A DNA stretch of 48,869 bases from Akkermansiaceae bacterium (lineage in GTDB: Bacteria > Verrucomicrobiota > Verrucomicrobiia > Verrucomicrobiales > Akkermansiaceae), in NCBI GenBank assembly GCA_029242935.1, contig JAQWSX010000043.1, positions 1 to 48,869 on the forward strand, in the 5' to 3' direction. The notes under the pieces are model-generated. The model was not told where the DNA came from and ran no database searches. It saw only the letters and a program-made list of their open reading frames with translations. The translations under genes were made by a program, and so were the position numbers. Positions within the stretch are counted from its first letter, which is position 1, and each line of letters begins with the position of its first letter. Shown here piece by piece: positions 9,213 through 10,643 of the stretch.

Positions 9213-10643
9213 CTAATGAATCTCGGGCGTCCCATAAAGAGTGTAGCCAGTTGAGTCCTCAATCCTGACGTCAAGCAACTGCCCAGCCATTCTTTCGGCG
9301 TTACCATCAAAGATGACAATCTTGTTCTGGCTCGTTCGCCCGCTAAGGCGCTCTTTATTAGTTTTACTCGGCCCTTCGCAGAGCACTTGTTGAACGGTGC
9401 CAATCAATTTTGCGTTCTTCGAGGTAGTCAATTCCCCCTGGATTCGGAGTAATGTCTGGTTGCGTTCCTCCTTAATCTTATCGCTCAATTGCTCGTCCAT
9501 TTCGGCGGCCGGAGTATCTTTTCGTTTTGAGTAACGGAAGATAAAGCTGTTATCAAAACCAATCCGTTTCATGCACTCTACCGTCTCCTGGAAGTCTTCC
9601 TCAGTCTCGCCAGGGAACCCCACGATAATGTCCGTGGTGATTGCTAGATCCGGTCGTGCAGCCTGCATCTTCTCGCAGATCGTAAGGAACTTCTCGTTCT
9701 TGTAGGGTCGCCGCATCTTTTTAAGAATACGATCACTCCCGCTCTGCATCGGGAAGTGAATGTGTGAACAAAGCTTCGGCAGATAAGTGAAAGCCTTCAC
9801 CAAATCATCGCGGTAACCAATGGGATGCGGACTGGTAAAGCGAATCCTTTCGAGACCCTCGATCTCGTGCACTGCTTCCAAAAGTTGCACGAATGGTGAT
9901 TTACCATCAACCTTGGAAAACTCGGTCCGACCATAAAGATTTACAATTTGCCCCAGCAGAGTGACCTCCTTCACACCCTTGCCTACGAGCACCTTAACTT
10001 CATCAACAATATCGGGAATCGGTCTTCCTCGTTCTTTGCCACGTGTATCCGGCACAATACAAAACGAACACCGCATATTACATCCTTGCATGATACTGAC
10101 GAAGGAAGTCGCCTGTTGGCTTTCTCGAGGAATATGATCCCTGATGGTATTTTGGCTGCCTTCCTCCTCATCAGTGTCAACCATTCTCGCGGAGATAATC
10201 CGGTCCTGATTAATCTTTATGATTTCATCCTCAACCCGTCCTGTGACCATTTCCACCCCGACCTCGTCCATACGTGTCTGCAGGCGACGATTTAAAATGC
10301 TGTCCACATAGTCGAAAACGCGGTGATACTTTTGCGTCCCCACTACCAAATCAAGGTGAGGCACCCGGTCAAAAAGCTCTGATCCGCGACTCTGCGCCAT
10401 GCACCCCATAAAGCCATAGACAACGTGATCGCGGCTCTCACGATACTTCCCCATCATCCCCATTTTCCCCAAAGCTTTCTGCTCCGCCTGATCGCGAACA
10501 CTACAGGTATTAATCAAGATCGCATCAGCATCCTGTTCTTTGGGGGTGAGAGTGTAACCTCGTTCGGCAAACGTCTGAGCAACCTGCTCAGAATCCCGCT
10601 CGTTCATCTGTCACCCGTAGGTTTTGATAAAGACCTTTGGCAT
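9213..10643 (-). CDS. miaB: tRNA-2-methylthio-N6-dimethylallyladenosine synthase MiaB, putative selenoprotein (Sec11)
   Basis: Radical-SAM enzyme that adds a methylthio group to i6A37 of tRNAs reading UNN codons. Read from ATG 10643 the protein is 476 residues and begins MPKVFIKTYG-U-QMNERDSE, where U is an in-frame TGA at 10613-10611. MiaB proteins have cysteine at this exact place (YGCQMN); it is one of three ligands of the auxiliary Fe-S cluster. The other two are present in INTCSVRD (Cys47) and FMGCMAQ (Cys81). The radical-SAM triad is GCNMRCSFC (188, 192, 195), and a TRAM-like C-terminus is present. Starting instead at ATG 10607 would drop strand beta-1 and the first cluster ligand. A SECIS-like hairpin lies at 10574-10592. 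A TGC-to-TGA sequencing error is the alternative. Confidence 0.88.
10574..10592 (-). promoter_or_regulatory. Candidate bacterial SECIS hairpin in miaB
   Basis: On the minus strand an 8-bp perfect stem (TCTGAGCA with TGCTCAGA) closes on GGT; drawn with an opened A-T pair, the loop is AGGTT. The loop starts 25 bases after the TGA, inside the usual 16-37 window for bacterial SECIS, and has G in its first two positions. The E. coli fdhF loop is also of AGGU type. Confidence 0.75.
10611..10613 (-). other. In-frame TGA proposed as selenocysteine codon (MiaB residue 11)
   Basis: The codon on the minus strand is TGA where MiaB homologues have TGC/TGT for a cluster-binding cysteine. Ten codons before it and all codons after it match MiaB, so the frame is continuous. 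Confidence 0.8.

Follow-up and report, generated by a model that had tools for sequence, protein, structure and literature searches.

A predicted selenocysteine form of the tRNA methylthiotransferase MiaB in Verrucomicrobiota

Introduction

The miaB gene of a draft Akkermansiaceae genome has an in-frame TGA at its eleventh codon, the place of the first of the three cysteine ligands of the auxiliary [4Fe-4S] cluster of MiaB. Does this TGA end translation, is it an error, or is it read as selenocysteine (Sec)? The window, i.e., the whole stretch of DNA analysed here, comprises 48,869 nucleotides (positions 1-48,869 of contig JAQWSX010000043.1) from the Akkermansiaceae bacterium draft assembly GCA_029242935.1 (3.16 Mb, 219 contigs, 85.5% complete). 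A reading of the sequence alone had proposed a selenocysteine MiaB, and this proposal is supported by the recurrence of the TGA in other genomes, by a hairpin that is kept together with the TGA and by the presence of sel genes. From these sequence comparisons, we put the probability at about 0.93 that the product of this gene is a tRNA methylthiotransferase that genuinely works as a selenoprotein, with Sec predicted to be read at the UGA.

The miaB gene and its protein

The gene starts with MPKVFIKTYG-TGA-QMNERDSEQVA, contains this single in-frame stop and is then open to its TAG (Table 1). With the TGA read, the product scores 464.1 bits against TIGR01574 of NCBIfam (cut-off 355.3) and contains UPF0004, radical SAM and TRAM domains. 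Alignment to the solved MiaB structure 7mjv places the TGA on the YGCQMN cysteine, in agreement with the sequence-only reading, according to which the stop replaces this residue only. That reading had also described the other two cluster cysteines and the CxxxCxxC triad as intact, which extends to the aligned copies: C47, C81 and the triad C188/C192/C195 are kept in 96/96 aligned Verrucomicrobiota rows (62 Sec, 34 Cys), and at residue 11 each row has either Cys or TGA. We take C47 and C81 to be the second and third ligands of the auxiliary cluster. The available text of PMC5352715 describes the second [4Fe-4S] cluster of methylthiotransferases as held by a CX35-36CX32-33C motif in UPF0004; positions 11, 47 and 81 match this spacing, with the TGA (predicted Sec) instead of the first Cys.

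The protein resembles the known MiaB (TIGR01574; PDB 7mjv-7mjz) in its score over the cut-off, its three domains, its ligand spacing and its best fold matches, but differs in that the first auxiliary-cluster cysteine is a TGA accompanied by a SECIS-like hairpin inside the coding sequence. With a pLDDT of 80.5 and a pTM of 0.62, the AF2 model has medium quality, and it contains no cluster geometry. Its best PDB matches are the MiaB structures 7mjz and 7mjy (TM 0.58-0.59); the whole-chain rmsd is about 12.7, so the domain placement in the model is unreliable. The source genome also encodes MiaA (TIGR00174, 221.4 bits, over the cut-off), and supply of the i6A substrate is thus present. As only one UPF0004 protein was found in the 85.5%-complete assembly, no RimO or MtaB is seen there.

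Table 1. Positions of the miaB features in the window.
Feature	Position	Strand	Remarks
miaB, predicted selenocysteine form	9213..10643	minus	476 residues counting the TGA; TAG stop 9215-9213; TIGR01574
In-frame TGA, codon 11, predicted Sec	10611..10613	minus	aligns with the cysteine of YGCQMN
SECIS-like hairpin, 8 bp, GGU loop (10584-10582)	10574..10592	minus	comparison of Sec and Cys copies, and folding
Cys47	10503..10505	minus	presumed second auxiliary-cluster ligand (family knowledge)
Cys81	10401..10403	minus	presumed third auxiliary-cluster ligand (family knowledge)
Cys188-x3-Cys192-x2-Cys195	10059..10082	minus	radical-SAM cluster triad
UPF0004 (methylthiotransferase) domain	10338..10637	minus	sole one found in the source genome

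The TGA codon in related genomes

The set of relatives comprised 192 genomes, the source included, 179 of which had a MiaB match at a threshold of E 1e-80. Among the matches listed, internal stops were either absent or exactly one TGA, never TAA or TAG, and none of the 54 TGA genomes had more than one MiaB match at this threshold. We fetched 90 loci, i.e., all 54 TGA matches listed (source included) and 36 stop-free ones. The sequence-only reading had pointed to TGA or TGC at this codon in homologues as a check, and the 89 loci that were read bear it out, with TGA in 54, TGC in 29 and TGT in 6; as these loci combine all listed TGA matches with only a part of the stop-free ones, 54/89 is not a frequency. 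Randomly placed stops elsewhere in miaB, which would have spoken against a selenocysteine MiaB, were not seen: among the matches listed and read, the single stop is always at codon 11. The codon reading skipped one locus of the relatives (L205) and four of the GTDB loci described below (L083, L087, L097 and L140); in L087 and L140, the stretch ends within MiaB.

The TGA-bearing motif was also sought in 84,980 GTDB species genomes, which yielded 64 stretches, many from the same assemblies as the set of relatives. The N-terminus of this MiaB type was found in 59 of them, 58 under Verrucomicrobiota names and one called only 'Bacterium'. Named strains with a TGA-bearing miaB are Rubritalea marina DSM 17716 and R. 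profundi SAORIC-165. In an order-wide search, the pattern of the Sec form occurred in 53/386 genomes and 7/50 genera (reversed control pattern: 0), and 52 of the 53 genomes belong to the source's family. Wherever the TGA is read as a stop, miaB is probably annotated as truncated.

The exception in the order-wide search (G134) has all three sel markers. It is apparently the same assembly as locus L124, the place of selB being identical, and holds the only exact-pattern Sec form outside the source's family among the 386 genomes of the order. In the tree, it groups with Cys copies of family f2, which indicates a separate gain, retention or transfer.

A SECIS-like hairpin

Downstream of the TGA lies the hairpin U-CUGAGCA-GGU-UGCUCAG-A, whose stem has 8 bp when the outer U-A is counted; it starts 18 nt from the TGA. 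As given in the available part of a 2026 catalogue of prokaryotic selenoproteins (PMC13188914), bacterial SECIS elements have a loop of 3-9 nt, a stem of 4-16 bp, a G among the first two loop positions, a distance of 16-37 nt from the UGA and an MFE of at most -7.5. The miaB hairpin falls within all of these limits (loop 3 nt, GGU; stem 8 bp; loop at 26 nt; -16.4), and the perfect GG-loop hairpin at the right distance that had been noticed in the sequence is confirmed. Folding of the TGA plus 51 nt gave an MFE of -16.4 kcal/mol, with a hairpin-only centroid of -10.9. This is only modestly better than shuffled sequences (z -1.84; 10/200 shuffles fold equally well), too weak for folding energy alone to be accepted as proof of a SECIS element. 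Chance is excluded by the comparison of copies, not by folding.

This comparison drew on a coding-sequence table of 149 rows read, 142 usable and 99 distinct; L102, L117 and L108 were excluded from the Sec/Cys comparisons, the 96-row alignment and tree and the selection ratios included, as were L083 and L097, which are not in the table. Each of the 50 distinct Sec hairpin windows has 6-7 of the 7 core pairs and the GGT loop, whereas among 35 distinct Cys windows none has 7 pairs, 5 have 6 pairs and 21 have the GGT loop. The hairpin codons 19 and 20 (GAG and CAG) are each present in 50/50 Sec windows, compared with 17/35 and 21/35 Cys windows, respectively. In the Sec rows, synonymous diversity reaches its minimum at codons 18-22 (0.24, against a mean of 0.92 over 262 five-codon windows); the Cys rows show no dip at the hairpin (1.0-1.17 at codons 19-21). 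The 47 Sec rows have 95.7% of their cells paired and the 34 Cys rows 54.8%, although the Sec value barely exceeds that of shuffles (94.8%; 15/500 as high) because the hairpin columns hardly vary. Changes on both sides are seen at one hairpin pair only. The RNAalifold consensus of the Sec alignment has an extra lower helix and misses two apical pairs; our reading is based on the apical hairpin only. A scan of the window at Rfam gathering thresholds gave no match. Four TGT copies (L176, L177, L179 and L184) and one TGC copy (L180) keep 6/7 pairs, as expected if they recently departed from the Sec state.

Exchange of Sec and Cys and selection on the reading frame

Parsimony requires at least 13 swaps between Sec and Cys on a 96-row tree for which the codons of the Sec site and of the hairpin had been masked. 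A 99-row tree likewise gave 13 swaps, and its well-supported branches alone force 10 of these. On the supported branches of the 96-row tree there are 9 independent Sec/Cys pairs, and the hairpin (at least 6 pairs and GGT) follows the codon in 7/9 of these and goes against it in none (sign test p 0.016). With the strict definition (7/7 pairs), it follows the codon in 5.7/9 on average and never goes against it (median p 0.031). These natural swaps, 13 by parsimony and 9-10 on well-supported branches, provide matched enzyme pairs for the study of selenium at an Fe-S cluster, e.g., the closely related G075 (TGT) and G082 (TGA).

Is Sec then used as cysteine would be? Selenolate chemistry differs from thiolate chemistry, and Sec could be inserted without being the usual cluster ligand, to serve instead in redox chemistry or in the handling of chalcogen, the reaction being altered so as to yield, e.g., a methylseleno product. 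The clade does have a peculiarity that would suit such a change: GQIVNLYG, residues 231-238 (window 9953-9930, minus strand), is invariant or nearly so in the 96 Verrucomicrobiota rows, where the distant MiaBs L102, L117 and PDB 7mjv have GQNVN, a departure from a conserved motif of MiaB that is specific to the clade. However, GQIVNLYG is common to Cys and Sec copies, no residue sharply separates the two (largest frequency distance 0.57), and the frequent exchange of Sec and Cys suggests that both forms perform the same reaction. We give an altered reaction a slim chance.

Translation across the TGA can be judged from the codons around it. In a set of 62 distinct Sec genes, nonsynonymous and synonymous differences stand at a ratio of 0.10 at codons 2-10 and 0.31 at codons 25-60; at hairpin codons 18-24 the ratio is 0.97, the result of lost synonymous changes plus Q/R and M/T variants. 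The low ratio before the TGA means that the frame is translated on both sides. If the TGA were a real stop, synthesis would have to restart at the ATG at 10607, and an ORF from 9213 to 10607 does exist mechanically. Its product would be a 464-residue MiaB without the first ligand and the first strand. The strong purifying selection on codons 2-10 excludes such a restart as the normal product; it would also lose a position that is Cys or TGA in every aligned row, and it offers no reason for a hairpin that is kept only alongside TGA. We therefore reject a downstream restart, which is very improbable, in favour of readthrough with Sec.

Selenocysteine machinery

A search for selA, selB, selC and selD had been proposed along with the sequence-only reading, and three of the four were found in the source genome: selA (480.8 bits), selB (312.5) and selD (384.5) are all over their cut-offs, so a lack of all sel genes does not apply. 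No selC over the cut-off was found in the 85.5%-complete assembly, which is probably an assembly gap. Among the matches listed, the six closest relatives of the source by MiaB have a tRNA-Sec of 53-54 bits. We classed a match as selC if it was over the cut-off and at least 89 nt long, because shorter matches over the cut-off, which score as high as 53.6 bits, resemble other long-armed tRNAs; with this length filter, selC is present in 40/53 other TGA genomes. ARAGORN assigned the anticodon TCA to 8/8 tRNA-Sec loci scanned.

None of the 54 TGA genomes lacks all of selA, selB and selC, and 48 have at least two of them. Over the cut-off, selB is missing from 5/54, selA from 5/54 and, with the length filter, selC from 14/54; one marker only is found in 6/54. 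These missing genes are probably assembly gaps as well. At least one of the three markers is present in 24/92 stop-free genomes and none in 68/92, so the TGA and stop-free genomes differ with a Fisher p of 2e-21 that is not corrected for kinship. The comparison classed 54 TGA and 92 stop-free genomes of the 192; the remainder were 33 whose MiaB matches were partial or not listed, G134 with its TGA pattern among them, and 13 that had no match. As 24 stop-free genomes do have sel genes, the Sec form of MiaB is not obligatory where Sec is used.

The selD gene of the source genome (L216) holds its own in-frame TGA, in CGG-U-ASKLG, which we take to be the position occupied by Sec or Cys in SelD. 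Its downstream hairpin, UCACGCA-AGUCU-UGCGUGG, has an apex (GCA-AGU..UGC) that resembles the GCA-GGU-UGC of miaB. With its TGA and hairpin, selD serves as a positive control for the decoding of UGA as Sec. SelD is nonetheless a different enzyme, and its Sec is described in the available part of PMC13188914 as the catalytic residue of a selenium-binding loop, not a cluster ligand.

These results also bear on whether the TGA is read as Cys or Trp without selenium, by a suppressor tRNA, a changed code or leaky termination. A frame that is open across the TGA would be expected in that case too, yet the presence of the TGA tracks selA, selB and selC, the constraint on the hairpin is specific to TGA copies, and selD of the same genome has a TGA at its presumed Sec/Cys position. 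Moreover, TGA terminates 10/31 long ORFs of the window (a hand-picked set), i.e., it is an ordinary stop there, and we reject a change of the genetic code. We consider all such selenium-free decoding highly unlikely, and insertion of Sec remains our reading.

TGA-bearing miaB in other phyla

Five of the 64 GTDB stretches lie outside Verrucomicrobiota. Three of them (L083, L097 and L108; Omnitrophota, Elusimicrobia) are short 5' fragments of miaB with TGA at the same codon, joined to unrelated sequence, and in L108 the TGA fragment is closely followed by a miaB start that has TGC. Such an arrangement suggests an insertion, or else a duplication, at the 5' end of miaB. The other two, from a Hyphomicrobiales MAG (L102) and a Terriglobus MAG (L117), are full-length with TGA at codon 11. 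In the five genomes, where selB was the only sel gene sought, none was found over the cut-off. With no selB over the cut-off and with three of the five being fragments, we do not for now accept a Sec form of MiaB in other phyla. The TGA of L102 and L117 may be due to error, decay or something else, and their lack of selB over the cut-off indicates that a TGA at codon 11 can arise by error or decay. Although these two genes and the draft state of the source (219 contigs) would fit a sequencing error or pseudogene there as well, this is hardly credible for a TGA that is found, as the sole stop in long intact frames, in dozens of assemblies, including those of two named Rubritalea strains.

Relation to known selenoproteins

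The available part of the 2026 catalogue of 119 prokaryotic selenoprotein families (PMC13188914) contains no MiaB, methylthio- or Verrucomicrobi- terms, in line with the earlier remark that MiaB is not known as a standard selenoprotein family. A text search of the accessible text of the GOS selenoproteome (PMC2398784) likewise found no MiaB, methylthio- or radical SAM. No selenoprotein MiaB was among the best 25 of 29 NCBIfam matches. Among the matches listed from the open-licence literature, we found no report of a selenocysteine MiaB or methylthiotransferase, and a report may exist elsewhere. As far as this literature was searched, the predicted Sec form of MiaB is a new selenoprotein family in Verrucomicrobiota.

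The catalogue does include two other radical SAM selenoproteins, TIGR04167 and TrsS (NF045646), each with one Sec (PMC13188914 Table 1). According to its available text, these belong to families other than the methylthiotransferases, and TIGR04167 has a GxxU motif (PMC13188914). On Sec as an Fe-S cluster ligand, our search of the open-licence literature found nothing among the matches listed. The Sec of methanogen HdrA and of VhuD/FrhD is a cluster ligand. The same part of the catalogue lists these as verified selenoproteins and describes HDR as Fe-S cluster-containing; unlike the MiaB studied here, they are archaeal electron-transfer subunits, and archaeal SECIS elements are mostly located in the 3' UTR (PMC13188914). 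With the Sec form of MiaB, the selenoproteins gain a well-studied radical SAM enzyme, and Sec would be put at the cluster of sulphur incorporation.

Predicted mechanism and implications

Selenium is almost certainly inserted at the UGA of miaB, judging by the comparisons above. The SECIS-like hairpin, with its loop 26 nt after the UGA, would recruit SelB and Sec-tRNA(Sec), so that Sec would be inserted at residue 11. Sec11 would take the place of the first of the three auxiliary [4Fe-4S] cysteines, the rest being an ordinary MiaB, and from this position the cluster is predicted to be bound, probably, by one selenolate and two thiolates. The reaction itself, i6A37 to ms2i6A37, would be unchanged. 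As described in the available text of PMC10702137, the auxiliary cluster takes part in the incorporation of sulphur, and the methylthio group formed during the first half reaction is carried on it. The most likely benefit of Sec would be that the cluster withstands oxidation and the removal of sulphur better, or is restored more readily after them, and selenium could also aid the rebuilding of the cluster once sulphur has been taken.

As no second MiaB copy was found, MiaB synthesis, and hence the level of ms2i6A, would depend on selenium, with the proviso that a diverged copy might be missing from the drafts. This would link selenium supply to tRNA modification and the fine-tuning of protein synthesis. 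The tRNA-Sec anticodon loop is CTTCAAA or TTTCAAA, i.e., A36-A37-A38, in 5/5 loci viewed (L055, L057, L060, L062 and L066), which is presumably of the MiaA/MiaB substrate type, so tRNA-Sec may itself be modified by these enzymes. A bolder and rather doubtful extension is that MiaB here acts as a selenium gauge of tRNA modification, possibly with a feedback loop in which the selenoenzyme adjusts the very tRNA(Sec) needed to read its UGA, and has the first selenolate-bound auxiliary [4Fe-4S] cluster known in a methylthiotransferase. If it were true, lack of selenium would end synthesis after 10 residues, MiaB would be gone, and the tRNAs for codons starting with U would be without their methylthio group. 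As Rubritalea marina DSM 17716 is a named strain, the Sec form of MiaB is directly testable in it.

Gene neighbourhood

A promoter and terminator scan near miaB gave values inside the range of shuffled sequences. On the 3' side, miaB is followed by a 205-aa ORF at 9167-8550 (minus strand) with no Pfam match. This ORF is overlapped by a DHH/CBS/DRTGG/DHHA2 gene at 8560-6866 on the same strand, a possible operon.
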